Of a DNA stretch of 21,029 bases, positions 1,459 to 16,867 are shown piece after piece. Below the pieces are notes generated by a model. The model had not been told where the DNA came from. It saw nothing but the letters and a program-made list of their open reading frames with translations, and did no database searches. This DNA comes from Brevibacillus sp. (GTDB lineage Bacteria > Bacillota > Bacilli > Brevibacillales > Brevibacillaceae): the NCBI GenBank assembly GCA_029240815.1, contig JARDZO010000088.1:1-21029 (forward strand). Reading direction: 5' to 3'. Position numbers and translations under genes: made by a program. The stretch's first letter is position 1; each line of letters opens with the position of its first letter.

Positions 1459-2744
1459 TTAACTGTCGATGATTTCATCCGTAAATTGATGCATCTTTCT
1501 TCGCCCATATCTGAAATAGTAATACACATAGCATGCGAGCATAAAGCCAATCCCGATGAAGAATGAGGTGCGCTGTGTCGGGTCATACACGGTAAATCCA
1601 AAGATGAACATGCACATGAGAATACACAGGATGGGAACGATCGGGAAGAAGGGGACGGCGAACTTTAAGTCCTCCACCTTTCCGCCGCCGCGGATATATT
1701 GCTTGCGGAAATTGTACTGTGCCCATGCGATGACGGCCCAAGCAACCGTACCCCCGATTGCGGCGACAGAATACAGCAGGATGAATACTGTTTCGGGTGC
1801 GATCAGGCTAGACAGCAAGGACAACAGCGCATAGCCCAGCGTGACAAGCAGCGCATACAGCGGAACTCCTCTTTTCGTCAGTTTTGAAAAAACTGAGTGT
1901 GCCATTCCTTTTTGCGACATGGAGTAGAGAATGCGTGTACTGACAAAAAGACCTGAATTTCCTACCGACAAGAGAGCTGTCAAGATAACAAAATTCATAA
2001 TATCAGCAGCATAAGGAATGCCAACCATATCGAAAACAGTGACAAACGGGCTTTCCATCACACCGGCTTCCTTCCACGGGACGATCGCCGCCAAAACAAA
2101 CATGGCCGCTACATAGAAGAGCAACAGTCGAAAAACGATGTTTCTGATGGATCTGGGGATATTTTTTTCTGGTTCTTCCGTCTCCCCTGCAGCAACACCA
2201 AAGACTTCCGAACCTTGAAATGCGTATACGACGGTCATCATGGTAATGAATACGCCGGTAAATCCATTGGGGAAGAGCCCGCCCTCACCGATAAAATTGG
2301 AAAGGAACGGTGTAGGCCTATCTCCCATGCTCATGAACCCGAAAATTGCGGCTCCGCCGACGATGATAAATATAATGACAGCAGCAACCTTAATACCTGC
2401 AAACCAATACTCCGTCTCTGCATATGCTCTCGTGGTCAGCGCATTTAATGAAAAGAGCAAAACGACAAACAGCGCGCTCCAAATCCAAACGGGCGTATCT
2501 GGAAACCATCTTTGCATCAGGATACCGGCTGCCGTAAACTCTGAGCCAACCGTGGTACCCCAGCTCATCCAATAGACCCACCCCACCGTAAATCCTGTGG
2601 CTGGACCAATAAACTTGGTTGCGTGTTATAGCCTGAACTTAAGAAAAGCCCGGTACCGATTGTCCCTCCTAGGGAAATCATGAATAAATGCCTGCTTTTC
2701 ATGGAACGCTTCAATTGCCCGCCGTTTCCTTGCCCTGTTGACAT
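1459..2744 (-). pseudogene. Amino acid permease (APC superfamily, AAT/RocE-like), internal deletion and frameshift
   Basis: The gene starts at ATG 2744 with a GAGGGGG site, and its first 43 or so codons read [20 protein letters not shown] and then [16 protein letters not shown], the standard first membrane segment of AAT permeases. After codon SGY (about 2623) the frame breaks, and in this frame a TGA follows about 20 codons later. In the next frame the protein resumes at [18 protein letters not shown] and continues intact for the remaining segments to the stop at 1459. In family members these two pieces are separated by roughly 44 residues (end of segment 1 through segment 2 to SFQTY), and these are absent. 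A start at ATG 2586 gives 375 residues lacking two segments, which is unlikely to work. Preferred substrates of relatives are arginine, ornithine or other amino acids. Confidence 0.85.
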
Positions 2745-2760
2745 AAGATCCCCCTCTTTT

Positions 2761-2850: not shown

Positions 2851-3933
2851 TCATTTGGCCGGCAATGGCAGTACCTCTTGCAATGCTTCCTGGACTAGCA
2901 AGTGGAAATGATGCACGCAATTTTCTGTCAGCGAAAATCTCCCTTGCCTATATGCGCCGGTATCCAAGCCTTTTTGCACCACTTCGCAAATCTCTAGGTC
3001 TTCTTTACGAACGTCGAGGTCTATGGCGAACAATTCTTCTTCTTCTTTCGTCATCGTCTCATTCATCAAGAACGTCGTATATACATACTTGGTTGTTTTG
3101 TGGTCAATCGGAATGGATTGGTGGATCGATAAATTGGCTGGGCCCGGGTCAAAGGAAAACCACATATTCGGGTACAACCAGTAATATCGGCCGCCTTTTC
3201 CCAATTCATATTGATCTGTGGCTATTCCCTTAAGAGGGACACCTTGATAAATGTACTTTTCCTGAATATCGACTTCATAGCTGTCCATGTTTACCTTTTG
3301 CATCAATGATTTATGGACCAACGGACAGTGATCGCATTCCAGGTAATTATCGATTCCCACTTTCCAGTTCGACCGGCAAACAGTCTCGACCACTCTAACC
3401 TTTTTCAATTTTTCCAGATGAAGCTTCTCAAAGCCTTCAAAGAGACCGCCGTATACCTCTGCCATCGTTTGTGCGTTTGGATCGAGATTGACGAAGATAA
3501 AGGACGCCTGGATTTCCAATCGTATCGGTTTCAGGCAAAAATCCTTGTGATTGAATTGTTCTACGCCTTTCATATTGGGTGCCTTGTTGAGCTGGCCGTC
3601 CGTGTGGAACGTCCAGGCGTGGTACGGACAGGTGAACACACTTTTGTTCCCTTCTCCCTCAACCAGCTTTGAGGCGCGGTGTGTGCATACATTGTAAAAC
3701 GCTCTGACAATGCCATCGTTACCACGTGCGATAATGATCGGCTTGTCGGCAACCTCCGCCGTAAAATAGTCGCCAGGCTGCTGTACCCCGGTGACATGTC
3801 CTACGTACTGCCACGTCTTGCTGAAAATTTCCTTTTTCTCCACTTCCAGAACGTCCGGATTTGTATATAACCATGCCGGCAGGGTATATGCCTCGCTCAA
3901 TTTTTCGCTCACTCTCACATCTGTGTGCGGCAA
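2851..3933 (-). CDS. Rieske non-heme iron oxygenase, alpha subunit (betaine/carnitine/stachydrine demethylase group)
   Basis: A 360-residue terminal oxygenase. The Rieske site is C83-T-H85 and C102-P-Y-H105. The mononuclear iron site lies in DNYLECDHCPLVH, with H202 and H207 as ligands and D312 (in RKEDLEICE) as the likely third. E199 occupies the position bridging Rieske and iron centres in the carnitine/glycine betaine group, where most Rieske oxygenases use Asp. The C-terminal GLDTGAYRQGRFSLTENCVH stretch is also typical of GbcA/Stc2-like enzymes. These oxidise N-methyl groups of quaternary amines with O2, releasing formaldehyde. The start is TTG 3933, because GAGAGGGGG (3949-3941) sits seven bases before it; the upstream GTG at 3951 has no such site. 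It follows the activator gene after a 114-base gap that may hold its own promoter. No reductase partner is encoded nearby. Confidence 0.88.
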   Translation of the reverse strand: MPHTDVRVSEKLSEAYTLPAWLYTNPDVLEVEKKEIFSKTWQYVGHVTGVQQPGDYFTAEVADKPIIIARGNDGIVRAFYNVCTHRASKLVEGEGNKSVFTCPYHAWTFHTDGQLNKAPNMKGVEQFNHKDFCLKPIRLEIQASFIFVNLDPNAQTMAEVYGGLFEGFEKLHLEKLKKVRVVETVCRSNWKVGIDNYLECDHCPLVHKSLMQKVNMDSYEVDIQEKYIYQGVPLKGIATDQYELGKGGRYYWLYPNMWFSFDPGPANLSIHQSIPIDHKTTKYVYTTFLMNETMTKEEEELFAIDLDVRKEDLEICEVVQKGLDTGAYRQGRFSLTENCVHHFHLLVQEALQEVLPLPAK

Positions 3934-4047
3934 TGCTAATCCCCCTCTCACCTATTAATGTTGTGAATTCATTTTATAATAGAAATTATCAGACAATATA
4001 TGTGTATTTTGAACAAAAATGGCTGGATGACAGGACCATCGTTTTGT
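3934..4047 (-). other. AT-rich gap between the activator and Rieske genes
   Basis: About 114 bases, AT-rich in the part nearest the Rieske gene. It holds the Rieske ribosome binding site (3941-3949). I could not find a GG-N10-GC sigma-54 element on the minus strand. Candidate -10-like runs (TATATT, TATTAT) occur without a matching -35 at normal spacing, so a promoter here is possible but not demonstrated. No terminator hairpin follows the activator gene. Confidence 0.4.
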
Positions 4048-5808
4048 TCAATCCGTTTCGCCGATTTGGTACTTCTGCATTTTTCGCAGGACAGTCGCTT
4101 GATTGATCCCCAAAATGCGGGCAACTTTCCTCGAGGTCCTGTATTGCTTCCATGCCATCTGTACGATTTGCTTCTCCACTTCCTCGACCGCTTCCCTGAT
4201 CGGGACAAGCTGCTTGACCGACACCGCCTTTTCACCGGAATACGCGGTATGCCTGATATAGTCTGGCAAATCCTCAGCACTGATTCTGTTCGTTTCCACC
4301 GTGACAACCAACCGTTCCATCAGATTTTCTATCTCCCTCACGTTTCCAGGCCAGTGATAGGCAAGAAGAGCTTGCAGCGTCTCTGGATCCATACGGACGT
4401 TTCGGCCGAATCTGCCAATGTAGTATTGCAAAAAATGCTCGATCATCAGTTGGCAATCTTCCGGGCGATGGCGAATAGCCGGTATCTGGATGGGAATCAC
4501 GTGAATGCGGTAATACAAATCTTCGCGGAAGTCTCCGGTTTTCACCATCTGTTTCAAATCCCGGTGGGTAGCGGCAATGATCCTGACATCCGCTTCGACC
4601 TGGCGTTTCCCGCCTACTTTCGTGAACATTTTTTCCTGGATCACCTGAAGGATCTTCACCTGCAAAGATGGCGGAATCTCGGCGATTTCATCCAAAAATA
4701 ATGTTCCTTTGTCAGCCGATTCAACCAAACCGATCTTTCCGCGCCTTTCCGCACCGGTAAATGCCCCCGCTTCATATCCGAACAATTCGGACTCAAGCAG
4801 GTTGCCCGGGATTGCCCCGCAGTTAATATGCACAAAGGGACCATTTTGGCGCAGGCTGTGATCGTGAATATACTTGGCGAGGGCTCCTTTCCCGACTCCG
4901 GTCTCGCCCAAGAGAAGAACTGTGGAATCGACAGCCGCTATCTTTTGGGCAAGCTGCAGAATATCGGTCATCACCTTGCTTGCTGCGATAATCTCCTTGC
5001 CTTCTGCCTTGCCGCTGCGCAGTTGGTTTAATTCATCCCGGTAATAACCGATCAGCTCTTCCGCCTCTTCCAGACGTTTCTGCAGCTCCACTAGCTCGGT
5101 CACATCTCTGACGTTGCTGATAATCCGGTAAAGCTCCCCTTGCTCATCCAGCACGGGATTGGCGGTGACGATAAACTGCTTCCCGTTCACGATGATTTTT
5201 CCGGTTTGCGTTTTCTTCGTCTCAATCACTTTCGGATTCACCGAGTGAAGGATGTCGCCGTCCTGTTCCAATTCAAAACAGCTTCTCCCGATATAGTAGG
5301 AGGGAGGCTTACCTGTTGTCCGTTCACACGCCTGATTGACGTACAGGGTAACGCCTCTACCGTCGGCAACGTAGATCTCATCAAATGAATGGTCAAAAAT
5401 GAGTTGCATTTCTGCCTTACCGGAACGCAGCATATGGTGGAGGCGCTCAGCGATTTCCGCTTTCATCAGAAGCCGGACAGGCTTCTCTCCCGACATCAGG
5501 AGACAGGAATGGGTCACGTCACGATAGAGATGCTCCAACTGATCCACTGTCAGCGACTCCCACTCTTCCATTTGCATGTGCTTCACCCCAAGGAGACGGA
5601 GGCTAGAAACCGGAACATCGCCTCTCTTCTCCAGCATGGCATGCAATATCGCTTCAGTCGTAATCATCCCCTTAACAGAACCGTCCCCGTCGCTGACTAG
5701 AGCAACGTCAGCTTTTCTGTTAGCCAGTTCCCATCCGGCTTCAACGGCCCACACATCACCATCGAGGATGATGACTTCTTCTCGTGCTGCGTTCCCAAGC
5801 AGGTTCAT
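4048..5808 (-). CDS. Sigma-54-dependent transcriptional activator (CBS-PAS-AAA+-Fis HTH)
   Basis: A 586-residue enhancer-binding protein. Residues 1-125 look like a CBS-domain pair ([18 protein letters not shown] and a second, degenerate copy near 98-122). A PAS domain covers about 133-235, followed by a short coiled linker (236-265). The AAA+ domain shows Walker A GETGVGKG (301-308), the sigma-54 contact loop GAFTGA (348-353), Walker B GTLFLDEI (368-375) and a [11 protein letters not shown] end (486-496). The Fis/TyrR-type helix-turn-helix is at 556-582. It hydrolyses ATP to open promoters bound by SigL RNA polymerase. The ligand sensed through CBS/PAS is unknown. The start is ATG 5808 with AGAGGTGAGAG upstream, 12 bases after the oxidoreductase stop, so it is cotranscribed. 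It is the obvious candidate to act at the -24/-12 promoter at 11701-11718. Confidence 0.93.
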
Positions 5809-5820
5809 ACTCTCACCTCT

Positions 5821-7776
5821 TTATAATTTGGCTGCCAATTCAAATCCTTCCAAAATGGCGTTTTCGGCCGTTCGCGGAGCCAGGCAATCACCGATCCGGT
5901 AGATTTCCTTGCCAAGCTTTTTCAGTTGATAATATAAATCGGTTCGCTGGATGTAACCGGTTGACATCACTACACCATCCACATCATCAATGGTATACGG
6001 TTCATAGTTGAAAATATTATAAAATACAATGGAACTTTTGTTCACTTCTTGTATACGGTAATGAGGCGTCATTTTCACCTGCTTGCTGTATAAATTGCCT
6101 AGATACACGTCCTGGAGGTATTTTTGCAATTTTTCGCCGATTACATGCGTCCCTGACACGATTTCTACCTCTTTGCCCTGATCAGCCAGGTACTCCGCAA
6201 CGCCGACACCTGCCCAATCCCCTTTCCAATCGTACACGACGACACGCTGTCCCGGATCCACCCGTCCATTCAGCACATCCTCCACGGAAAAGATATGGTC
6301 CTGATCCATTCCGTCAATCTGCGGATAATGTGGATCGCCGCCGACCGCCATGACGACAGCATCAGGATTGACACTCCTGACGACCGCCTCGTCTACCGGC
6401 GAGTGGAGATGGACGTGTACACCGGAGAAGCTCAATTCCCGTTTCAAGTTGAGAATCAAATCCCCGAATTCACTGCGGTTCGGCGCTTTGATTGCGGTGC
6501 GGACAAGCCCGCCCAGTTCGCCATCCCGTTCATACAAATGGACGTCATGCCCTCTCTGGGCGGCAATCACCGCACACTTCATCCCGGCCGGACCGCCGCC
6601 AATCACCATTACCTTCTTCGCTTTTTCCGCTCGCGGAAGTTCCGCGTACTGAAGCTCCCGACCGGTGACCGGATTTTGGATGCAACTGATCGGCAAGCCT
6701 AGCTCCATGTGTCCGATACACGCCTGATTGCATCCGATGCAGTACCGGATTTCCTCCATTTTCCCCTGGTTCGCCTTGTTCGGCATATGGGGATCACAGA
6801 TCAACGCCCGCGTCATTCCCACCACATCAGCCTGACCATTGGCCAGAATCTTGTCCGCGATAACTGGATCGTTCACCCGCAGATTCATGAAAATGGGTGT
6901 TTTCAGTTGTGATTTGAATTGTCCGGACACCGGAGCGAAAACGCCTGGCTCGACAGGAGCAGGCGGCGCGATAAACACGGCAGCCGTCTCGGTCGACGAA
7001 TGTCCTCCGGTAATATTAAAATAATCCAGCCCCGCCGTTTCTTCGATGTACACGCAAATCTGCAGGATTTCTTCCGTCGATAATCCCTGTTCTGCCAAAT
7101 CATCTCCACTCAGTCGCATGCCGACCACAAAGTCTTCGCCTACCCTTTCACGGACCCTCTCGATGACTTCAATGGTAAATCGCATTCTCCCTTCAAAGTT
7201 ACCGCCGTACTCGTCCTCGCGGTGATTGACTTGCGGCGACCAGAATTGGTTGAACAAATAACCGTGCGATGCCACCAGCTCAACCCCGTCCAATCCCCCC
7301 TCCTTTACACGACGGGCTGCCGCAGCGTATCCTTCCACGATTTCCGCGATTTCTTCCGTTTCCAGTTCTTTTGGCATGTTTTTAAACCGGGAAGTGGGGA
7401 TTGCTGAAGGGGCGACGCCCGGATATCCGGGAGGACCGGATTCATTCACCTCTCTGCCCGGATGAAACAGCTGGACAAACATCTTCGTTCCGTATTTGTG
7501 GACGGCATCTGCAAGATTACGATAATACGGGATAATCTCATCCGTGTAGGCTACCAGCGTGTCCGCCGTGAAATAGGCGGTGGGATGGATCGCATTGGCT
7601 TCCATTACGATAAGTCCCGCTCCCCCTTTCGCCCGTTCCTCGTGATAGGCGATCAACCGATCGTTTGGAAGACGGTCCTCTACGAATGTTGTCATGTGTC
7701 CTGTACTCATGACCCGATTTTCCAAAATGAGGTTCCCTACCCGTACTGGTGTAAACAAAAATTGGAACTGGTCCAT
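5821..7776 (-). CDS. OYE-type flavin/iron-sulfur oxidoreductase (DgcA / N-methyl amino acid demethylase-like)
   Basis: A 651-residue protein of the 2,4-dienoyl-CoA reductase/trimethylamine dehydrogenase/dimethylglycine dehydrogenase DgcA family. An FMN-binding TIM barrel covers about 1-335 with the HGYLFNQFWSPQVNHR active-site segment (H171, Y173). A [4Fe-4S] site follows with C346, C349, C353 and C365 (C-x2-C-x3-C-x11-C). An FAD/NAD-type Rossmann domain begins VMVIGGGPAGMKCA at 389-402 and ends CLAPRTAENAILEGFE. The residue giving a covalent 6-S-cysteinyl-FMN in trimethylamine dehydrogenase is not evident. The start is ATG 7776, since AAAGGAGAGG (7792-7783) precedes it by six bases; an upstream ATG at 7815 would overlap the previous gene. 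The linked ETF genes suggest that it oxidatively N-demethylates a secondary or tertiary amine and passes electrons to ETF. A plain enoate reductase role is the alternative. Confidence 0.85.
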   Translation of the reverse strand: MDQFQFLFTPVRVGNLILENRVMSTGHMTTFVEDRLPNDRLIAYHEERAKGGAGLIVMEANAIHPTAYFTADTLVAYTDEIIPYYRNLADAVHKYGTKMFVQLFHPGREVNESGPPGYPGVAPSAIPTSRFKNMPKELETEEIAEIVEGYAAAARRVKEGGLDGVELVASHGYLFNQFWSPQVNHREDEYGGNFEGRMRFTIEVIERVRERVGEDFVVGMRLSGDDLAEQGLSTEEILQICVYIEETAGLDYFNITGGHSSTETAAVFIAPPAPVEPGVFAPVSGQFKSQLKTPIFMNLRVNDPVIADKILANGQADVVGMTRALICDPHMPNKANQGKMEEIRYCIGCNQACIGHMELGLPISCIQNPVTGRELQYAELPRAEKAKKVMVIGGGPAGMKCAVIAAQRGHDVHLYERDGELGGLVRTAIKAPNRSEFGDLILNLKRELSFSGVHVHLHSPVDEAVVRSVNPDAVVMAVGGDPHYPQIDGMDQDHIFSVEDVLNGRVDPGQRVVVYDWKGDWAGVGVAEYLADQGKEVEIVSGTHVIGEKLQKYLQDVYLGNLYSKQVKMTPHYRIQEVNKSSIVFYNIFNYEPYTIDDVDGVVMSTGYIQRTDLYYQLKKLGKEIYRIGDCLAPRTAENAILEGFELAAKL

Positions 7777-7795
7777 GACGATCCTCTCCTTTGTC

Positions 7796-8518
7796 TCAAT
7801 TGGAATGCTCATCAATGATTTCCGCTATGTCCTTGACGACCATTTGTTTCCCCATCAGGTTGATTCCCTCTTCCAGCATGATCGTGCAAAACGGGCAACC
7901 GGTGGCGACGATTTCCGCTCCTGTTGCGATAGCTTCTTCAGTGCGGATGCTGTTGATTTTTTCCCCTTGCCTGTTCCCGCCCCAGATCGCGCTGCCGCCC
8001 GCTCCGCAACAGAAGGCTTTCTCTCTGTTTCGCAGCATTTCCGCTATCGGAGCACCACCAGCTGCCGCTTGCAGCACCTTTCGCGGTTCCTCGAATACAC
8101 CGTTATGTCTCCCCAAATAACAGGGATCGTGGTAGGTGATCGATTTCTCCAGTTGTTTTGTCAGGGTCAATCGCCCTTCCTCTATCAACTGCCACAAGTA
8201 TTGGCTGTGATGGACGACTTCAAAATCGCCTCCGAACATCTTGTACTCTTTGCCGATGCAGGTAAAACAGTGGGGACACGCGGTCAGAATTTTCTTTGCC
8301 TGATGCGCTCGCAATGTCTTGATATTGTAAATCGCCAACTCCTGAAACAGCACTTCATCTCCAGCGCGGCGGGCCAGATCGCCTGTACAGCGCTCCTCTT
8401 TACCTAGAATGGCAAAGTCAACCTTTGCTTTTTGCAGCACGCGCACGATTGCCCTGGCAATATCCCTTGCCCGAGGATCAAAGGCAGGCGCGCAACCTGT
8501 CCAGTACAGGATTTCCAT
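7796..8518 (-). CDS. CCG-domain iron-sulfur protein (HdrB-like half of a FadF/DgcB-type ETF:quinone reductase)
   Basis: A 240-residue protein with two cysteine-rich CCG repeats. The first has C9, C44 and CPHC (81-84). The second has C133, CCGAGG (170-175) and CPFC (208-211), which is the spacing of the HdrB-type non-cubane iron-sulfur cluster. The start is ATG 8518, which shares its A with the TGA of the preceding gene (TGATG), with GGAGGAGG eight bases upstream; a longer open frame to 8896 lies inside that gene and lacks similarity. In B. subtilis FadF and in Pseudomonas DgcB the equivalent region is the C-terminal part of one long protein. Here it is a separate subunit. It presumably relays electrons between ETF or the flavoprotein and the membrane subunit. 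It ends 19 bases before the oxidoreductase start. Confidence 0.87.
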   Translation of the reverse strand: MEILYWTGCAPAFDPRARDIARAIVRVLQKAKVDFAILGKEERCTGDLARRAGDEVLFQELAIYNIKTLRAHQAKKILTACPHCFTCIGKEYKMFGGDFEVVHHSQYLWQLIEEGRLTLTKQLEKSITYHDPCYLGRHNGVFEEPRKVLQAAAGGAPIAEMLRNREKAFCCGAGGSAIWGGNRQGEKINSIRTEEAIATGAEIVATGCPFCTIMLEEGINLMGKQMVVKDIAEIIDEHSN

Positions 8519-9783
8519 CAACGTGCCTCCTCCTTTTTTTCCGCCACCGTAACCGTGAGTCCTTTTGTCCAATCCGTCCGCGTATGGCCTGGATTGCCCC
8601 AGGGATTGTGGTAGGTTTGCAGATTGGAAAGCGTGCTCTCCAATTGTGGCTCCAGCACGTTTTCCGCGATCAGTCCCTGCCGGAGCGAGACAATCATGGG
8701 CACATGTCTGATGGAAACAGGACATCTCTCCATGCACGCCCCGCATGTGGTACAGGAGAGGAGCTCCTCCTGGCTGAAGCCCATAAGAGAGTGATTCGGC
8801 TTGTGCATCTGGTCGCGAAGCTTCATCACGATGCTTCGCGGTGCAAGCGGCTTGCCGCTTCCTGCCGCCGGACACACCTCGTCGCATCGGCCGCACTCTG
8901 TACAGGCGTCCATGCTCAAAAGCTGGGAGAACGTAAAATCGCTTGGCGATCTCCCACCTAAACCAAGATTGCCTGCCGCTATTTCCTCGATCGATTGGTT
9001 TGCCAGATTAAAAGACGGCTTCAGATCCGTTTCCGTCAACGGTTCGGTCAAGATCATATGGATCGGCGCCAAAAAGATATGCAGCAATTTTGTAAAAGGG
9101 ATCAATGCGATCAAGGCGAGGGCAACCACCATGTGGAACACCCACATTCCGACATAGAGCATTTCAGACGACGGCCCCACGCCGAGTGTTTGCAGGATCG
9201 CCGCAAGTGAATAACCGACAAACGACCAGCCTCCATGACCCGGGGAAGTGATCGCCAGACGAATCGCTTCAAGCAAGAAACCGCTGATCCCAATCACCAA
9301 CATCAGGATGAGCATGACGCGATCGGCCGGTTTGGTCCGCAGGCGGGCAATTTTGCCTACGGGCAGGCGGTTCATGATCGCCAGCCCTACGCCGATCACG
9401 AACAGAACGCCAAACAGGTCCAAGGTCATTTCATAGAGAAGGTAGAACCATCCTCGCAGAAAATGAAGCCCTAAATCGTAATCAATAAAGACGAGCACCG
9501 TTCCGATAAAGAGAACGACCATCCCCGTGCTGAGCGGCATGTGCATGCGACCGCTCTTTTTTTCCTCCCTGATCCGCCTCTGGCTGAGGATGGCAGCCAA
9601 GCGCTGCCACAACACCGATCTCATTTGTTCCATTGAGATGGGGGATGGCCTGCCTTTCCTCCAAAGGCGAAAGCGGCGATAAAATCCATAACCGAATAAA
9701 ATCAAACTGATTGCGCTTGCCGCGTACAAAAGGATCTGAACGCTCACTGGAACAGCCCAAAAGGTATCGCGATAGATCTCCAC
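8518..9783 (-). CDS. Membrane [4Fe-4S] protein with NarI-like domain (N-terminal half of FadF/DgcB-type reductase)
   Basis: A 421-residue integral membrane protein. About five hydrophobic segments (13-32, 84-105, 117-137, 155-175, 207-232) resemble the nitrate reductase gamma subunit, with histidines (H107, H217, H235) that could ligate heme b. The soluble C-terminal part carries two [4Fe-4S] motifs, C294TECGRCDEVCP and C344TTCGACMERCP. FadF of Bacillus and DgcB of Pseudomonas have this arrangement followed by CCG domains, which are encoded here by the next gene. The probable role is to pass electrons from ETF to menaquinone at the cytoplasmic membrane. The start is GTG 9783 with AAAGGAGAG upstream, itself inside the last codons of etfB; the gap to etfB is one base. 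The final residues (402-421) are a charged, low-complexity tail consistent with a genuine end rather than truncation. Confidence 0.88.
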   Translation of the reverse strand: MEIYRDTFWAVPVSVQILLYAASAISLILFGYGFYRRFRLWRKGRPSPISMEQMRSVLWQRLAAILSQRRIREEKKSGRMHMPLSTGMVVLFIGTVLVFIDYDLGLHFLRGWFYLLYEMTLDLFGVLFVIGVGLAIMNRLPVGKIARLRTKPADRVMLILMLVIGISGFLLEAIRLAITSPGHGGWSFVGYSLAAILQTLGVGPSSEMLYVGMWVFHMVVALALIALIPFTKLLHIFLAPIHMILTEPLTETDLKPSFNLANQSIEEIAAGNLGLGGRSPSDFTFSQLLSMDACTECGRCDEVCPAAGSGKPLAPRSIVMKLRDQMHKPNHSLMGFSQEELLSCTTCGACMERCPVSIRHVPMIVSLRQGLIAENVLEPQLESTLSNLQTYHNPWGNPGHTRTDWTKGLTVTVAEKKEEAR

Positions 9784-9784
9784 G

Positions 9785-10681
9785 TTATCTCTCCTTTCTC
9801 CACTCCTCCAGCTTCTTCAGCAAAAGCTCCGCCGCTTTTTTCGGAGAGTCAGCGACCACTTCTTTCGTGCTCTGCTCTTTTTTTTCTGCCCGCGGTCCGC
9901 CCATCATCATTTTCATCCGGGCTGCCAGCGGATTGCCTCGTGACAGTCCTCCTGCAGGAGCTGTTTCCTTTACAGGGGCGGGCGAGGCTTTTGTTCTCGG
10001 TTTTACTTCCGACAGCCTTTCAAACACGATCGTCCTGTCTTTGACTTGGCGCTCCTCCAATGAGAAAGCCACTTTTTCCAGCGGAATCTGTCTCCCAATA
10101 AGATGAACTCTGCTCAACCGCGGGACGTAGGAAACGGTTTCATGCCGAGACAGGGAGAAAACAGCCGGCAACGTCACTAAAAAAGTCCCTTTGTACCCTT
10201 TCTGATAGACGGTTTCCACCATTACTTGTGCGGGGTCTGCTACACATGCCATCTTCTCCACCCCTCCCATGTGGGCGAAGTTCAGCAGTTCCGCCAGCCA
10301 GCCGCCCGTAAACGAATGGAACCCGTCCGATTGCCTTTCGTTGCAAAGCACGATTTGGGGCGAGTATTTCTGAATGAGCAAAGACAACTGCATGACCCTT
10401 TGCAAGGGAGCTTCCATGGCTGAATGCGGGGTGCTTACCAACACAGCACGATTTGCGCCTACAAGGGAGAGGGTTGAATACAGAGCTTCGTCCATTTCTT
10501 CGCCCACCACAATTACCGTCAACTCCGTGCCCCGTTCCTTCGCCAGCCTTTTTCCTTTTTCCAACACGGTCAGATCGCAGCGGCTGATCACCGGTACCAG
10601 ACCTTCCAACGCTTCCTTTTGCAAGTCGTACCGCATATTCAACGGGTCGGCCGTCACTTCCAGAATTGCTATGACGCTCAA
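9785..10681 (-). CDS. etfB: Electron transfer flavoprotein, beta subunit
   Basis: A 298-residue ETF beta subunit that binds AMP and forms a dimer with EtfA to shuttle electrons in the cytoplasm. The family pattern is visible as MRYDLQKEALEGLVPVISRCD, the ERQSDGFHSFTGGWLAELLNFA stretch and RLSRVHLIGRQIPLEKVAF. The first helix and central domain occupy about 1-215. Beyond this there is an unusual tail of roughly 70 residues, with a Pro/Ala/Lys-rich linker followed by a lysine/methionine-rich segment and a predicted helix (AAELLLKKLEEWRK). Typical EtfB proteins are about 250-260 residues. The start is TTG 10681, overlapping the etfA stop by four bases (TTGA), with GGGGGTGG upstream. The neighbours indicate that it accepts electrons from the flavin oxidoreductase. 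Confidence 0.9.
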   Translation of the reverse strand: MSVIAILEVTADPLNMRYDLQKEALEGLVPVISRCDLTVLEKGKRLAKERGTELTVIVVGEEMDEALYSTLSLVGANRAVLVSTPHSAMEAPLQRVMQLSLLIQKYSPQIVLCNERQSDGFHSFTGGWLAELLNFAHMGGVEKMACVADPAQVMVETVYQKGYKGTFLVTLPAVFSLSRHETVSYVPRLSRVHLIGRQIPLEKVAFSLEERQVKDRTIVFERLSEVKPRTKASPAPVKETAPAGGLSRGNPLAARMKMMMGGPRAEKKEQSTKEVVADSPKKAAELLLKKLEEWRKER

Positions 10682-11661
10682 GAAACCACCCCCAGTGATT
10701 CCCTCAACATTTCCAGGATGATTGGGACCACGTCCTGATAGGCAAGGGCAATGACCAATTCTGCGTTTTCCGTAATGGGGGCGCTGGGATCAGGATTGAT
10801 CACCATAAGATGCTTGACCTCTTTAATGCCGGCGAGATGGTGGGGTGCACCGGATATGCCAATCGCCAGGTAGATGTGGCTGGCGATATTTTTTCCGCTG
10901 GCCCCGATACGGAATTCCCTGGTGATGAGCCCGCTCTCGTCCGCGACCTTGCTTCCTCCGATCGGACAATTCCACATTTCAGCCAGCTTGTGGATGCTTC
11001 TCATGCCCTCCTTGCTGACTCCCCTTCCTACGCCAATAATGAAATCTGCTTCGTGCAAGGAGAGCTCGCTCCAGTGAATGGGCTCCACTTTTTGCAGAGC
11101 AATGCGCTGCGGTTCGCTGTGGCATAAAAACGGGACGATCTCCATCTCCTCCACCGGTTGTTCAAGCTTCTCCAATGAATCCAACGAGATCGTCAGAATG
11201 GACAATCGTCCGCCCGCCATCGCAAACAGTGCGTGCGTTTTCTCGCCATATGCCTTTTTGCGCAACTGCAGCATGCCCTTGGACCTGGAGTAGTCGACAA
11301 TTTCTCCCAGCACATCCGCTTGAAAACGAATGGACAAACGGGCGGCCCACTCATTCCCCAAGGAATTGGCTGCCAGCAGCAAACAATTGGGCTGTACAGT
11401 GACAAGCAATTGCGAGAGCCCTTGCAGATTCACGCTGGCTTCCGATTGACAGCGATCCTCCGCCTCCAACACATACACCTTGCGGATACCGCACTGTTTT
11501 AAGCGGCCCATCTCTTCTGTTGCTTCCCCACTGACCACAGCACAAGGCTTCATACCGGTTTGTTTGCTGAATCGGACCGTTTCGGCTGCGATTTTGATCC
11601 CTGTATCCGAAATCTTCCCTTTATCTATCTCAATCCAACCCCACACTTCGTTTGCGCTCAT
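10678..11661 (-). CDS. etfA: Electron transfer flavoprotein, alpha subunit
   Basis: A 327-residue ETF alpha subunit, the normal length. The C-terminal FAD domain is clear: VGRGVSKEGM (211-220), GGSKVADESGL (235-245), IGASGKNIASHIYLAIGISG (252-271) followed by PHHLAGI, and INPDPSAPI (288-296). In the first FAD loop GGSK replaces the usual GASR, a small departure. The open frame can be extended to a TTG at 11706, but that codon lies in the -12 element of the sigma-54 promoter, so the start must be ATG 11661, which has AAAGGGTGG (11678-11670) eight bases before it. It is the first gene of the operon, with a predicted leader of about 30 bases, and overlaps etfB by four bases. Confidence 0.92.
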   Translation of the reverse strand: MSANEVWGWIEIDKGKISDTGIKIAAETVRFSKQTGMKPCAVVSGEATEEMGRLKQCGIRKVYVLEAEDRCQSEASVNLQGLSQLLVTVQPNCLLLAANSLGNEWAARLSIRFQADVLGEIVDYSRSKGMLQLRKKAYGEKTHALFAMAGGRLSILTISLDSLEKLEQPVEEMEIVPFLCHSEPQRIALQKVEPIHWSELSLHEADFIIGVGRGVSKEGMRSIHKLAEMWNCPIGGSKVADESGLITREFRIGASGKNIASHIYLAIGISGAPHHLAGIKEVKHLMVINPDPSAPITENAELVIALAYQDVVPIILEMLRESLGVVS

Positions 11662-11700
11662 CAAACAAACCACCCTTTGAATTTGTTTGTCTATTTCGAA

Positions 11701-11718
11701 TTGCAAGTCTTATACCAG
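11701..11718 (-). promoter_or_regulatory. Sigma-54 (SigL) -24/-12 promoter of the etfA operon
   Basis: On the minus strand CTGGTATAAGACTTGCAA fits YTGGYAYR-N4-TTGCA at every position, with GG and GC separated by exactly ten bases. The expected transcription start is near 11691, about 30 bases before the etfA ATG. The same operon encodes a sigma-54 activator with an intact GAFTGA loop, which independently supports the assignment. Confidence 0.88.
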
Positions 11719-11903: not shown

Positions 11904-11945
11904 GATATGTATCGTCATACCCTCGAAAGGAAGGACGGATTCCTG

Positions 11946-13136
11946 ATGAAAATTCTGGAGCATATTGCCCAAGGTATTGCTGATAAGACAACGGAAATCT
12001 TGGGATACCCGATCAGCATCACGGATAAGGAAGGGTACATCATCGGATCGACAGACCGTGCCCGTCTTGGGATTTTCCATCAGCCGTCATTGGAAGTACT
12101 GAAAAAAAACGGGTTGGTGACTTGCTATGCCCAGGAGGAGCCGAAGATTCTGCCCGGCGTTTCCGTTCCATTGATGTTTAACAACAAGCCTATCGGCGTT
12201 TTGGGGATTGTCGGCGATCCGGGAGAGGTCGAAAAGTATGTACAGCTGGTGAAAAACCAGGTAGAGATGATGTGCCAAGAAGCGTTCCGCAAAGAAGTGA
12301 TCGAGCTTGAATCGAAGATGGTGGAAGTGTTTGTCCAACAAATCATCCATTTTGAGAATGATGCGAACACGGATTACATTTTGCAATACGCCAAAACGCT
12401 CGGCTACGACCTGGACACAAGCCGCACATGCATCCTGATCGACATTGACATCGACATGAAGACACTCAACGACAGCTCCACCTTTTCCGACAGATTCTCC
12501 TTTCCCTACTTCCAGCGCGAGGCACTGGACTTTCTCAACCTGGTCTTCCGCGAAACAAAAGGCGACATCATTTCTTTCTTAAACGTAGAGCGGTTTATCA
12601 TCATCAAAGCGTTCCGTTCGGATGAAGCACATGCCGCTTTTTTGGACAAGCTTGAGCAAAAGCTGGAAAAGCTAAACAAATTCCTGAAATCCAAGTATAA
12701 ATTGTCGGCATCCATTGCTGTGGGTGATTTGAAAACGGGAATCCACGGGATCGCGGAGTCATACCGGAACGCTTCCAAAGCGATGCAGGTTGGAAAGAGG
12801 GAAAACGAGATACCGCCTCTATACCTCTACGACGATTGGGACATCACACTTAAGCTTCTGCCAAAAGAATTGGCACCTGACCTGCAAAAAAAACTGACAT
12901 CGATTATCCGGCCTTTGATTGAGCAGGACAATTTTGAAGTTTTGTCATCCACTTTCCTGGGGTATTGCAAGTACAACATGAACGTGAGTGAGACATCACG
13001 CAACCTGTTCATCCACCGCAATACAATCATTTACCGCTTGGAGAGAATCAGCGAGTTGACTTCTCTGAACACCGGCAGCTTTGAACACTGCATGCTGCTT
13101 TATACCGCGATCCGGCAATATGAAGAGGTAACATAG
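11946..13136 (+). CDS. CdaR/PucR-family transcriptional regulator (sugar-diacid-recognition type)
   Basis: A 396-residue regulator with the CdaR layout. A putative ligand-binding domain with a PAS-like fold covers about 1-130 and begins ILEHIAQGIADKTTEILGYP, with GVSVPLMFNNKPIGVLGIVG near 71-90. A GGDEF-like middle domain covers about 145-285, lacking a real GGDEF motif. The C-terminal PucR-type helix-turn-helix is at about 335-392 (NVSETSRNLFIHRNTIIYRL). Relatives sense diacids, purine breakdown products or amino acids and usually activate adjacent catabolic or transport genes. The start is ATG 11946 after AAAGGAAGG; the open frame could begin at 11907, but that has no ribosome binding site. 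It is divergent from the etfA operon and just upstream of the ABC transporter genes, with a terminator between, so control of either or both is possible. Confidence 0.88.
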   Translation: MKILEHIAQGIADKTTEILGYPISITDKEGYIIGSTDRARLGIFHQPSLEVLKKNGLVTCYAQEEPKILPGVSVPLMFNNKPIGVLGIVGDPGEVEKYVQLVKNQVEMMCQEAFRKEVIELESKMVEVFVQQIIHFENDANTDYILQYAKTLGYDLDTSRTCILIDIDIDMKTLNDSSTFSDRFSFPYFQREALDFLNLVFRETKGDIISFLNVERFIIIKAFRSDEAHAAFLDKLEQKLEKLNKFLKSKYKLSASIAVGDLKTGIHGIAESYRNASKAMQVGKRENEIPPLYLYDDWDITLKLLPKELAPDLQKKLTSIIRPLIEQDNFEVLSSTFLGYCKYNMNVSETSRNLFIHRNTIIYRLERISELTSLNTGSFEHCMLLYTAIRQYEEVT

Positions 13137-13373: not shown

Positions 13374-14252
13374 ATGCGTCATATCATCAACCTTTGGATT
13401 GCAGGTCTGGTCTCTCTTCTATTGTTGGCAGGGTGCGGGGGACAGCAAACTGCTTCAAACGACCAGGCGAATGCCGCAGCCACAACAAATGCGGGCAGCT
13501 CATCCTCCTCATCGCCCCAAACACCCTCTCCCGAAACCAAGCAAGGCGAAGTATTGGCACGGGTAAAACAAAACGGCGTGCTGCGGGTAGGCTTTGAGGG
13601 TACCTATTCACCGTTTAACTTCCTTAACGACCAAAACAAATTTGACGGGTTTGATGTGGACATTTCCAATGAAGTGGCAAAACGGTTGGGAGTAAAGGCC
13701 GAATTTGTAGCCACCAAGTGGGAAGGTTTGATTGGCGGCCTGAACGCTGACAAATTTGATATCATCATCGCCCAGATGAGCATTACGGAAGAGCGGAAAA
13801 AAAGCGTTGATTTCACTGAACCGTATGTCATTACCGGCGGTGTGCTGGCTACCCGCACCGATACGAACGACGTGACCAAGCTCGACGACATCAAAGGAAA
13901 AGCGATAGGTGTTGGCGCTGGCACTACCTTTGAGGAAGTGGCGAGCAAAGTGGAAGGTGCCGACGTACGCAAATACAAGAGCATGAATGATTACCTCCAG
14001 GATCTCGTCAATAAACGACTGGATGTCATCATGAACGATCAGCTGGTTTTAGGCTACAACATCAAGACGAAAAACCTGCCTGTCAAAATTGTGAGTGACA
14101 TCATCAACGAAGACAAAATCGGGATGGAGATCAAAAAAGGGAACAGCGATTTTGTCGAAGCTGTCAACCAAGTTCTCGCCGACATCAAAAAAGACGGCAC
14201 TTACGAAACGCTTTACAAAAAATGGTTTGGAGTAAGTCCCACACTGAAATAG
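13374..14252 (+). CDS. Polar amino acid ABC transporter, substrate-binding lipoprotein
   Basis: A 292-residue solute-binding protein of the HisJ/GlnH family. The N-terminal signal ends in a lipobox, LLLAGC with lipidated C21, followed by a low-complexity Gln/Thr/Ser/Asn/Pro spacer (22-62) that tethers it to the membrane. The binding domain has the family signature GVLRVGFEGTYSPFNF, FDGFDVDISNEVAKRLG and SITEERKKSVDFTEPY, where the Arg usually pairs with the ligand carboxylate. It therefore delivers an amino acid or close derivative to the permease; the ligand is not predictable from sequence. The start is ATG 13374 with GGAGGAG seven bases upstream. It is the first gene of a four-gene operon. 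It is closely similar throughout to the lipoprotein encoded at 19113-19943, suggesting duplication. Confidence 0.92.
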   Translation: MRHIINLWIAGLVSLLLLAGCGGQQTASNDQANAAATTNAGSSSSSSPQTPSPETKQGEVLARVKQNGVLRVGFEGTYSPFNFLNDQNKFDGFDVDISNEVAKRLGVKAEFVATKWEGLIGGLNADKFDIIIAQMSITEERKKSVDFTEPYVITGGVLATRTDTNDVTKLDDIKGKAIGVGAGTTFEEVASKVEGADVRKYKSMNDYLQDLVNKRLDVIMNDQLVLGYNIKTKNLPVKIVSDIINEDKIGMEIKKGNSDFVEAVNQVLADIKKDGTYETLYKKWFGVSPTLK

Positions 14253-14270
14253 AAAGGAGGCGGATTGTTG

Positions 14271-14923
14271 ATGGAACTGGTCTTCTCCTCGTTCCCGGTT
14301 CTCCTTGGAGCTGCATTGGTGACACTTGCACTGGCCATTGGATCCATGTTGCTTGGGCTCATAATCGGCATTATAACCGCGTTGGCCCGCATCTCGAAAA
14401 ATCCTCTCTTGCACAAGACCGCATCTGTGTATATATATCCATCATTCGCGGCACTCCCCTTCTCGTGCAAATCTACGTCATCTACTACGGCCTGCCGCAG
14501 ATCGGCATCGCCCTCGATCCGATCTCTTCAGGGATTATCGCCTTAAGCCTCAATGTGGGGGCATACCTGTCAGAAAGTTTTCGCGCTGCCATCCAGTCGG
14601 TTGACAAAGGACAGATGGAAGCGGCTGAATCCATCGGGATGACTTACGGCCAAGCCATGCGCAGGATTATCATCCCGCAAAGCATCCGCACAGCCATCCC
14701 CACCATTGGCAACACCTACATCGGACTGTTAAAAGACACCTCCCTGGTCTCCGTCATTACCGTCACCGAACTTCTCCAAATGACATCCTTGCTGATCGCT
14801 AAAACGTTTGAACCGTTAACGCTATATCTGATTGCCGGGGCCATTTATTGGATCCTGAGCACGGCATTCACCATCTTGCAGGGGCGCGTGGAAATCCGGG
14901 TAGCCCGCCATGTACGGCAGTGA
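14271..14923 (+). pseudogene. Polar amino acid ABC transporter permease, frameshifted at a TA repeat
   Basis: The start is ATG 14271 (or TTG 14268/14265), preceded by AAAGGAGG at 14254-14260. The first frame gives the usual HisM/GlnP start through LLHKTASVYI and then loses similarity at 14430-14438, where the repeat TATATATAT occurs. Removing one TA pair restores SIIRGTPLLVQIYVIYYGLP and the whole remainder, including the EAA loop MEAAESIGMTYGQAMRRIIIPQ that docks on the ATPase, to the TGA at 14923. The repaired protein has 216 residues, the normal length, with five membrane segments. There is no other damage. This is a recent mutation, a slippage variant or a sequencing error. Confidence 0.85.
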
Positions 14924-14939
14924 TCGAGGAGGCAGGGGC

Positions 14940-15695
14940 ATGGAAACAATGATTCAACTAAATGGCATTTCGAAAAGGTTCGCTGACCATGAAGTGTTGA
15001 AACAGGTTGATTTGCACGTCAAAAAAAGCGAAGTTGTGGTCATTATGGGTCCGAGTGGATCTGGAAAATCCACCCTGCTCCGCTGTACTACCTTTCTTGA
15101 AGAGCCGGATGCGGGAAGCATTCGCATAGGCGGGTGCGAAATTCAAGCCGACGGGCAGCAAACCCGTTCCCGACAGATGCAGATTCGGCAACTGCGGCAA
15201 CAGACCGGCTTCGTGTTTCAGCAATTTAATTTGTTTCCACATAAGACAGCCATTCAAAACGTGATGGAAGGCCCGATCGTCACTAAAAAGATGCCCAGAG
15301 AGGAAGCCCAGGCAATCGCGACTAAACTCTTGACCAAGGTGGGCCTGGCCGAGAAATGCGATCACTACCCCTCCAGACTCTCCGGAGGTCAGCAGCAACG
15401 GGTAGCCATCGCCCGCGCATTAGCCATGGAACCAAAAGTCATGCTGTACGACGAACCTACGTCCGCACTGGATCCCGAGCTGGTCAGGGAAGTGCTCCAG
15501 GTCATGAAGGACTTGGCAAAGGAAGGCATGACCATGGTCGTCGTCACCCACGAGATGGGTTTCGCCCGTGAAGTAGCCGATCGCGTGATATTCATGGATG
15601 GCGGAGTGATTGTGGAAGAAGGAAAGGCAGAGGAAATTTTCCAGAATCCGAAAGAAGAGCGAACTCGTCGTTTTCTTGCCAATGTTCACCACTAA
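14940..15695 (+). CDS. Polar amino acid ABC transporter, ATP-binding protein
   Basis: A 251-residue ATPase of the GlnQ/HisP family that powers the importer from the cytoplasmic face. Walker A is GPSGSGKST (37-45), the Q-loop is [10 protein letters not shown], the signature is [15 protein letters not shown], Walker B is [13 protein letters not shown], and the H-loop is [20 protein letters not shown]. All catalytic motifs are intact. The start is ATG 14940 with GAGGAGG (14926-14932) seven bases before it; an in-frame ATG at 14910 lies inside the permease end and has no site. It begins 17 bases after the permease stop and ends 26 bases before the dehydrogenase, so all four genes should share one transcript. 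Confidence 0.95.
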
Positions 15696-15721
15696 TAAAA
15701 ATGATGCGGGAGGGAAATGAG

Positions 15722-16867
15722 ATGCGGGTTGCCGTTTTAGGAACAGGAATGATCGGAAACATGGTGGTTGGAGAACTGGCCAAATGTCCAGCTATTCATC
15801 ATGTCATCGCGGTTGATGCCGTGGGAGCCAATTTGGATCGCTGTCTGACCATGGCCAACAGCAATAAAGTGACGGGCAAGGTCGCCGCCCTGCATGATTA
15901 TCAGGTGATGGTGGACGTCTTGAAGGAAGCCGATGCAGCGGTTGCCTGTTTGCCGCACTCACTAAGTCTGCCTGCAATCGAAGCCGCCATCGAAGCAGGA
16001 TGTCACCTGGTCGACCTAGTCGGTTCCAAGTACGAGGAGAAAGCGAAACTGCATGAAAAAGCCGTGGAAGCCGGAGTCCTGATTGTTCCGGGTGCAGGAG
16101 TGGCACCGGGAATCGTCAACTTTTTGGCTGCCCGGGGCGTCGAGCTTTTGGACGAAGCGGATGAAGCGGTGATGATCTGCGGAGGAATCCCCCGGCATCC
16201 CCTTCCCCCGCTCTGGTACCAGGTGGTATTCAGATTGGAGAGTGTGCTCGGTCTGTATACGAGGCCGGCATTGGCAGCGGAAAATGGAGAGTTGGTAAAG
16301 CTCCCTCCTTTATCCGGCCTGGAAGAAATTCATTTCGCAGAGCCTGTGGGAGCATGTGAAGCGGTAATAACGGATGCGCACAGCACCGCCCATACGCTTA
16401 AAAAGAAAGTGAAACGCCTCTATGAGAAAACGGTGCGTTACAAAGGACATTTTGAAAAAATGGGTGTGCTGGCAGAGCTGGGATTTCTGGATGAAACGCC
16501 GGTCGAGGTGGATGGCGCACCGATCAGCCCGAAAAAGCTCTCCATGGCCCTCTTGGAACCAAAAATGAAAGGCGGTTCCCAGGAAGACATCACTGTCGTG
16601 AGAGTGACGGTCGCCGGAACAAAAGAGGGACGCCCAGCCAAGCTACAGTGGGACATGATCGATTTGTATGATACGGAACGCGGTCTTACCTCCATGGCCA
16701 AAACAACGGGAACGCCCGCAGCGATACTCACCGAATGGCTGGCAGCGGAAAAAGTGCCGCACCGCGGCGTACTGGGCATCGAGGAAATTGTCATCGGGGA
16801 CTTGTTTGACCCTTTTATCGCCGAGCTGGACCGCCGCGGCGTACACATCTCTTTTACGCAGGAATAA
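15722..16867 (+). CDS. Saccharopine dehydrogenase-superfamily enzyme, lysine 6-dehydrogenase-like (copy 1)
   Basis: A 381-residue NAD(P)-dependent dehydrogenase. The Rossmann motif is VAVLGTGMIGNMVVGEL at the N-terminus. The catalytic-domain segment VPGAGVAPGIVNFLAARG, followed by ICGGIPRHPLPPLWYQVVF, closely parallels what I remember of Geobacillus lysine 6-dehydrogenase (PDLGVAPG..., VGGIPVRPEPPLEY...). That enzyme oxidises the side-chain amine of lysine to the semialdehyde, which cyclises. Whether this protein uses lysine or another diamino or N-substituted amino acid is inference. The start is ATG 15722 with GGGAGGG upstream. It is the last gene of the ABC operon, so it probably acts on the imported compound. 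It is a paralog of the enzyme at 17918-19069. Confidence 0.82.
   Translation: MRVAVLGTGMIGNMVVGELAKCPAIHHVIAVDAVGANLDRCLTMANSNKVTGKVAALHDYQVMVDVLKEADAAVACLPHSLSLPAIEAAIEAGCHLVDLVGSKYEEKAKLHEKAVEAGVLIVPGAGVAPGIVNFLAARGVELLDEADEAVMICGGIPRHPLPPLWYQVVFRLESVLGLYTRPALAAENGELVKLPPLSGLEEIHFAEPVGACEAVITDAHSTAHTLKKKVKRLYEKTVRYKGHFEKMGVLAELGFLDETPVEVDGAPISPKKLSMALLEPKMKGGSQEDITVVRVTVAGTKEGRPAKLQWDMIDLYDTERGLTSMAKTTGTPAAILTEWLAAEKVPHRGVLGIEEIVIGDLFDPFIAELDRRGVHISFTQE

Follow-up and report, generated by a model that had tools for sequence, protein, structure and literature searches.

A flavoenzyme operon with a predicted sigma-54 promoter next to a separately promoted, CntA-like Rieske oxygenase gene in Brevibacillus sp.

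Positions 1 to 21,029 of contig JARDZO010000088.1 of Brevibacillus sp. (assembly GCA_029240815.1), called the window below over this whole length, contain a minus-strand row of genes encoding an electron transfer flavoprotein (ETF), a membrane-bound quinone reductase, a flavoenzyme of the old yellow enzyme (OYE) type, a PrdR-like activator and a Rieske oxygenase (Table 1). The flavoenzyme operon and the Rieske row look like two separately controlled gene sets lying side by side. Unit 1 is probably a sigma-54 operon for the OYE protein, the ETF and an EtfD-type enzyme, and unit 2 a separately promoted Rieske oxygenase of the CntA-like group Va; this reading, which we favour, draws on the gene content, the conserved gene block, both promoter regions, the group Va marker and the cofactor ligands, all taken from the sequence. 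A preliminary description of this DNA had read the row as one sigma-54-controlled cluster for oxidative N-demethylation. The seven minus-strand reading frames with the domains that it named are all present, some with corrected starts, and the Bacillales-type genome that it recognised agrees with the closest flavoenzyme (Brevibacillus sp. NRS-1366, 92%) and the closest named Rieske protein (Scopulibacillus cellulosilyticus, 79%).

Genomic context and promoter of the Rieske gene

The best 80 of 146 confirmed stretches gave 79 loci with a Rieske gene (loci carry the prefix L), and 31 of them, five in stretches shorter than 20 kb, form the orthologue set at 60% identity or more. These 31 loci show an amino-acid permease gene (30 loci), a CdaR gene at 50% identity or more (19), genes for a flavin amine oxidase (18) and a DAO-type enzyme (eight), an aldehyde dehydrogenase and an aminotransferase gene (seven each), and an ABC transporter with an enzyme of the saccharopine/lysine-dehydrogenase family (four to five). 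None of the 31 shows the genes for ETF, the membrane protein with NarI and Fe-S domains (NarI/FeS), the CCG-domain protein or OYE under minimum requirements of 30% identity, half the query length and E 1e-20, which a very distant EtfB would escape.

The Rieske gene is preceded by a conserved block of 53 bases. The matrix built from 25 of 34 orthologue upstream regions, with the window excluded and nine regions left out for fewer than 30 of 52 seed matches (L003, L006, L011, L025 and L028-L032), scores 26.1 bits at 4019-3967; elsewhere in the window the best score is -9.2 bits, with a mean of -75 over 41,954 positions. Because the block is present in all 19 orthologous loci with CdaR and in only six of the 12 with no CdaR gene in the stretch, control of the Rieske promoter by CdaR seems likely. 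The conservation of the block indicates that the Rieske gene retains its ancestral promoter. Unit 1 sits between the CdaR gene and the Rieske gene, so that the flavoenzyme operon would now separate the latter from its usual divergent neighbour. This marks out a clade of Bacillales Rieske proteins whose promoter and regulator are conserved. A single joint cluster is not supported, since the unit 1 genes are linked to none of the 31 orthologues and the Rieske gene has its own promoter.

A further 45 loci, with a Rieske protein at about 45% identity, show a PrdR-like gene in every case and a malate-type dehydrogenase gene in 43. These relatives carry a carnitine-type set, with malate-type dehydrogenase, aldehyde dehydrogenase and BCCT genes, which differs from the amino-acid permease, CdaR and often flavin amine oxidase found beside the orthologues. 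The record of L013, titled Pseudomonas sp. ISL-84, shows a typical Bacillales gene order, and its name looks wrong.

The flavoenzyme block in related genomes

Searches for the OYE block covered overlapping sets of 16, 39, 193, 398 and 50 genomes, the last without the genomes of loci L074 and L076-L079. Ten loci contain an OYE protein at least 53% identical to that of the window: L088 (Brevibacillus massiliensis), L096, L097, L104 (Niallia endozanthoxylica), L105, L106, L123 (Pseudalkalibacillus decolorationis), L124 (Siminovitchia terrae), L125 (Siminovitchia fordii) and L126 (Bacillus norwichensis). The block is a real module, because EtfA, NarI/FeS and CCG genes lie beside OYE in all ten; they do so in none of 13 Bacillales loci whose OYE is 41-45% identical (the stretches of L092 and L129 are short). 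At the EtfB position all ten show a frame of 269-300 amino acids, 58% alike in L088 and 15-19% in the other nine. Nine of the ten show no Rieske oxygenase gene around the block within the fetched stretch. The linkage of the seven genes, put forward earlier as a check, is therefore strong within the flavoenzyme block and absent between block and Rieske gene, barring other pairings in three of 27 loci described below.

The operon is rare among the genomes searched: matches at E 1e-200 or better occur in two of 39 genomes, three of 193 and one of 398, where the single case repeats one of the first two. The 193- and 398-genome searches scored only six and three candidates per genome, respectively.

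Loci L123-L126 show a symporter gene at the head of the operon (Pfam for L123, by eye for the others) and a PrdR-like gene at its end. The variant of L104-L106 contains genes for an amidohydrolase, a Rieske ferredoxin, an EutQ-like cupin (Pfam checked for L104) and a protein of about 243 amino acids with no Pfam match; its substrate is probably a different one. In L089 and L133 the OYE relatives adjoin hydantoinase A/B-like genes (by eye), and their substrates are perhaps N-methylhydantoin or similar.

Promoter and activator of unit 1

The -24/-12 motif is not significant alone, with nine matches in the window at up to two mismatches and 12 on average in shuffled sequences. The site TGGTATAAGACTTGCA is credible because it lies 40 bp before EtfA and recurs in related operons. 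A site with 9-11 of the 11 consensus positions lies close to the leading gene of the operon in the window, L088, L096 and L123-L126; none precedes the genes tested in L097 and L104-L106. A PrdR-like gene is present in the window and in exactly the six of ten block loci with such a site, and in none of the four without it. A score of 9 is reached in 129 of 4,000 random stretches of equal length; the L096 site, which has no more than 9 of 11, counts weakly because it falls five bases within the start codon that was assumed. Repeats are also present upstream of EtfA in the window.

The activator scores 418 bits against the PrdR model NF041552, whose cut-off is 795. In this it differs from the PrdR, RocR and SoxR-type activators of Bacillus, with which it shares a PAS-type activator beside a -24/-12 promoter; PMC4428206 describes such activators driving the sarcosine, lysine and arginine operons of B. 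thuringiensis from -24/-12 promoters. Both features of a sigma-54 operon, promoter and adjacent enhancer-binding protein, are thus present at the level of sequence, so that the sigma-54 control first assigned to the whole row applies, in prediction, to the genes from ETF to activator; its extension to the Rieske gene, which has its own promoter, is not supported.

Electron path from ETF to quinone

The NarI/FeS and CCG genes are two overlapping genes and not a single broken one: the CCG gene starts at ATG 8518, which overlaps the stop codon of the NarI/FeS gene as TGATG. The NarI/FeS alignment has 14 rows (the window, the ten block loci, L152, L153 and L164; L159-L161 were removed for uncertain frames). 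The protein has five hydrophobic segments, and each of the 14 rows conserves His81, His235 and the eight Fe-S cysteines. Mycobacterial EtfD, according to PMC13083937, has five helices, two 4Fe-4S clusters and the CCG clusters D1 and D2, with His78 and His241 as ligands of the heme, and its relatives DgcB and FadF are there described as having no D1 cysteines.

For both proteins the best solved match is 9ojn (1042 residues), which is taken to be the structure of mycobacterial EtfD from its residue number and ligand positions. The NarI/FeS protein matches with E 4.2e-32, His235 falling on His241 and the eight 4Fe-4S cysteines being aligned, and the CCG protein with E 3.8e-63, C9, C44, C81 and C84 falling on the D1 ligands Cys503, 538, 581 and 584. 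The first heme histidine is unsure, either His81 (14/14) or His107 (3/14), because the match, which is weak at this point, aligns His107 with His78. All four D1 cysteines are present in the CCG protein of the window and of all ten block loci, and are missing in the DgcB-like protein of L164, in the proteins linked to enzymes like trimethylamine dehydrogenase (TMADH) in L152, L153, L159 and, to the extent that its row can be read, L160, and in a second copy in L097; in this comparison the L161 row is unreadable and that of L160 has no first segment.

The 9ojn matches and the D1 cysteine pattern point to an EtfD-like membrane acceptor, split into two genes. The electron path to menaquinone claimed earlier therefore keeps its support, from the ligand conservation and the 9ojn matches read against PMC13083937. 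The quinone reductase is not of the DgcB type that had been proposed, because the four D1 cysteines that this source reports as absent from DgcB are present; the DUF3483 model gives 23.7 bits, below its cut-off of 31.5. The window protein shares with EtfD, as described there, the two 4Fe-4S sites, the second heme histidine and the CCG domains with D1 cysteines, and differs in being encoded by two overlapping genes and in its link with an OYE enzyme in place of fatty-acid oxidation. With the DgcA-DgcB-ETF system of glycine betaine catabolism in Pseudomonas and Vibrio (PMC12093977) unit 1 shares the joint encoding of an OYE flavoenzyme, an ETF and a membrane protein of the CCG/Fe-S kind; DgcB, however, is fused, carries DUF3483 (270 bits in L164) and shows no D1 cysteines, and the regulator also differs. 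A gene arrangement unlike that of Pseudomonas is thereby borne out, and an OYE-ETF-EtfD operon is marked out whose ETF:menaquinone enzyme appears split and retains the cluster cysteines that DgcB is without.

Identity of the flavoenzyme

The OYE protein of the window shows no GxGxxG motif in its NAD(P)-binding domain, with VYDWKGDWAGVGVAE in its place. The motif is also absent from the second nucleotide domain of TMADH and of the L164 enzyme, and is present in FadH and NCR. TMADH uses ETF as its electron acceptor. The window protein thus shows features of an ETF-linked dehydrogenase, and to that extent the earlier reading is supported. Trimethylamine and histamine dehydrogenases share with the window protein the FMN, the 4Fe-4S cluster, a nucleotide domain without the NAD(P) motif and the overall fold; they are only 25-28% identical and form a separate clade, and the window protein is without the flavin-linking cysteine. 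The flavoenzymes of L152, L153, L159 and L160 were dropped as DgcA references, as they group with TMADH in the tree. The curated model of mycofactocin OYE 2 (TIGR03997) gives 670 bits, below its cut-off of 793, and the protein is not a member of that family.

It is rather unlikely that the flavoenzyme is a FadH-, NCR- or BaiCD-like reductase of enoates or dienoyl-CoA and not an amine dehydrogenase. NCR is its best structural match, identity to NCR and FadH is higher than to TMADH, the tyrosine of the GYL loop is retained and the four-cysteine cluster is intact, which all speak for such a reductase. The missing NAD(P) motif speaks against it, the linked ETF and EtfD-type quinone reductase fit oxidation, and the tree sets the window clade apart from FadH and NCR at 99/95 and 99/93. 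The same clade is sister, at 99/95, to the L164 flavoenzyme, which is 34% identical, stands on a long branch and serves as dgc/gbc-like reference by gene context only.

Class of the Rieske oxygenase

In sequence searches the Rieske protein matches CntA best (5.6e-62, versus 1e-31 for Stc2), and it is about 35-37% identical to CntA/YeaW over residues 14-353. Y197 corresponds to CntA position 203 and E199 to the bridging Glu205, as in group Va. Asparagine occupies position 203 in the four Stc2-side rows, and tyrosine in 78 of the 79 Rieske loci (the remaining one, L026, was not called); PMC7948474 contrasts the Va tyrosine with the asparagine of the demethylases GbcA and Stc2. The tree places the window protein on the CntA side, with the four-row Stc2-side clade apart at 100/100; L164 stands for GbcA, as the true GbcA is not in the tree. 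The structural model has CntA as its best match, and the GbcA family model gives 159 bits with a cut-off of 670, outside group Vb. Marker tyrosine, tree and model put the Rieske protein with the CntA-like (Va) oxygenases and not with the N-demethylases GbcA and Stc2 (Vb).

The window protein shares with CntA/YeaW the bridging glutamate, Tyr203, Tyr225 and Tyr295, and differs in the carnitine pocket, where Asn270 is replaced by Ser and Phe258 by Gly. The 315-319 region, to which the further pocket residues Tyr315 and Phe319 of CntA belong, is gapped in the alignment, and an acidic residue at CntA position 315 was for this reason dropped as a sign of an amino-acid substrate. No CntB-like reductase was found among the window frames scanned. 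The Bacillales carnitine-type cluster of L157 shows a ferredoxin and an NAD(P)/FAD-dependent oxidoreductase gene at the place expected for CntB.

Search, marker, tree and model thus agree on a Rieske oxygenase of the quaternary-ammonium group, as had been proposed; its place is in the quaternary-amine clade, and the demethylase part of that placement falls away. A GbcA-type demethylation was rejected as the likely Rieske reaction, and stepwise N-demethylation started by this enzyme is not supported, because it shows the Va tyrosine and not the asparagine given for GbcA and Stc2 in PMC7948474. It is accordingly improbable that the row is one sigma-54 cluster in which a GbcA-like Rieske acts first and a DgcA-like flavoenzyme then feeds menaquinone. 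The genes do share strand and order, no terminator lies ahead of the Rieske gene, the Rieske is of the quaternary-amine type, the flavoenzyme of the dgc/gbc-like locus L164 is the sister of the OYE clade, and a PurU-like gene stands beside related OYE genes in three loci, close mutual relatives (L090, L091 and L127; Pfam checked for L127 only). These points are set against the Va marker, the separate Rieske promoter, the lack of linkage in 31 orthologous loci, the D1 cysteines, which DgcB is without and which are present here, and the long branch on which L164 joins the tree. Analogy alone is no ground for taking a row of Rieske and flavoenzyme genes to be a cascade for betaine demethylation.

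Relationship between the two units

An appreciable possibility is that the units are chance neighbours, unit 1 having been inserted between the CdaR and Rieske genes, with pathways that share no intermediate. This would agree with the separate promoters, with the pairing in none of the 31 orthologous loci and with the distribution of the units in other Brevibacillus genomes: they lie on different contigs in Brevibacillus massiliensis, and for the two proteins of Brevibacillus sp. B_LB10_24 the longest listed contigs are not the same. Against chance, OYE relatives have a Va-type Rieske gene as neighbour in three of 27 other loci (24 genomic and three plasmid). In L097 it is directly behind the CCG gene on the same strand, in L134 Rieske, symporter-like (by eye) and OYE genes form a row, and in L100 the pairing is on a Rhodococcus plasmid; L133 has a remote Rieske besides. 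With one to three such genes placed at random in a 5 Mb genome, the chance of at least three pairings in 27 is 0.0002-0.004, and of at least two in 24 without the three plasmid loci 0.004-0.03, both rough values, since possession of a Rieske gene was the reason for choosing many of these genomes. Equal lengths of the longest contigs for some proteins (P0141 with P0058 and P0063, and P0144 with P0060) may point to further pairings. Because the pairing recurs, cooperation of the units is plausible. In the literature library searched, no paper joined Rieske, electron transfer flavoprotein and Brevibacillus.

Proposed reactions and substrates

For the two adjacent gene sets we infer the direction of electron flow, the substrates, the bond cut, the control by CdaR and the joint working as follows. 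Unit 1 would be a single sigma-54 operon activated by its own PrdR-like protein. Its flavin/Fe-S enzyme would oxidise a substrate, most likely an N-methylated amine of the tertiary or secondary type. Electrons would pass to the dedicated ETF, then to the split EtfD-type enzyme with its CCG clusters, 4Fe-4S clusters and b heme, and finally to menaquinone. Unit 2 would provide a CntA-like Va Rieske mono-oxygenase, expressed from a promoter of its own that the CdaR-type regulator probably controls. By likeness to CntA, this enzyme would oxidise the carbon adjoining a quaternary nitrogen and cleave the C-N bond, with a tertiary amine and an aldehyde as products. Unit 1 would have come to lie between CdaR and Rieske genes. 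A benefit of the pairing may be that the amine released by the Rieske enzyme could feed unit 1.

A more specific and doubtful proposal is a two-stage route new as a unit. A Va Rieske of a new substrate class would free a tertiary amine or a sulfide from an onium amino acid taken up by the amino-acid permease (for example trimethyllysine, giving allysine, or S-methylmethionine), and the chain of OYE, ETF and split EtfD under its own sigma-54 activator would oxidise the product and deliver electrons to menaquinone. For trimethyllysine there are only hints: a neighbouring gene product whose best solved match is 3abi (named PH1688), which we take to be lysine dehydrogenase, and the aldehyde dehydrogenase and aminotransferase neighbours. 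S-methylmethionine is hinted at by the resemblance of the permease (390 bits with a cut-off of 716) and by a methionine-gamma-lyase-like gene seen by eye in two loci, L005 and L008, and has no other support.

Gene starts and neighbouring genes

The EtfA gene starts at ATG 11661 and not at TTG 11706, which falls within the promoter; the OYE gene starts at ATG 7776, preceded by AAAGGAGAGG, and the Rieske gene at TTG 3933, preceded by GAGGGGG.

Table 1. Features of the two units and of their neighbours in the window
Feature	Position	Strand	Remarks
Unit 1	11717-4048	-	-24/-12 promoter, EtfA, EtfB, membrane b-heme/Fe-S, CCG, OYE, PrdR-like activator
Unit 2		-	Rieske gene with own conserved promoter; amino-acid permease (broken in the window)
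-24/-12 (sigma-54) promoter, TGGTATAAGACTTGCA	11702..11717	-	9/11 consensus positions; 40 bp before EtfA start
EtfA-like, FAD domain, 327 amino acids	10678..11661	-	PF00766 + PF01012
EtfB-like, ETF domain, 298 amino acids	9785..10681	-	PF01012
Membrane b-heme and two 4Fe-4S protein (NarI/FeS), 421 amino acids	8518..9783	-	PF02665 + Fer4
CCG-domain protein, 240 amino acids	7796..8518	-	PF02754
OYE-type FMN/4Fe-4S/FAD oxidoreductase, 651 amino acids	5821..7776	-	PF00724 + PF07992
PrdR-like sigma-54 activator, 586 amino acids	4048..5808	-	PAS, AAA+, HTH; NF041552
Conserved promoter/operator block of the Rieske gene	3967..4019	-	Matrix from 25 orthologues
Rieske oxygenase, CntA/YeaW side (group Va), 360 amino acids	2851..3933	-	Tyr at CntA position 203, bridging Glu
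APC amino-acid permease, conserved Rieske partner, broken here	1459..2745	-	In 30/31 orthologous loci
CdaR-family regulator	11907..13136	+	PF05651 + PF13556; divergent neighbour of Rieske in relatives
Amino-acid ABC transporter and saccharopine/lysine-dehydrogenase family enzyme	13374..16867	+	Rieske-linked in some relatives

The APC permease gene shows a loss of about 40 codons and a frame change near 2625; it is intact in the relatives, and the damage is either decay or an assembly error. A second broken transporter gene encodes an amino-acid ABC permease (14265-14923, plus strand), with a frame change near 14432-14435. The window contains two genes of the saccharopine/lysine-dehydrogenase family, at 15701-16867 on the plus strand and 17918-19069 on the minus strand, and similar genes are Rieske-linked in four of the 31 relatives.

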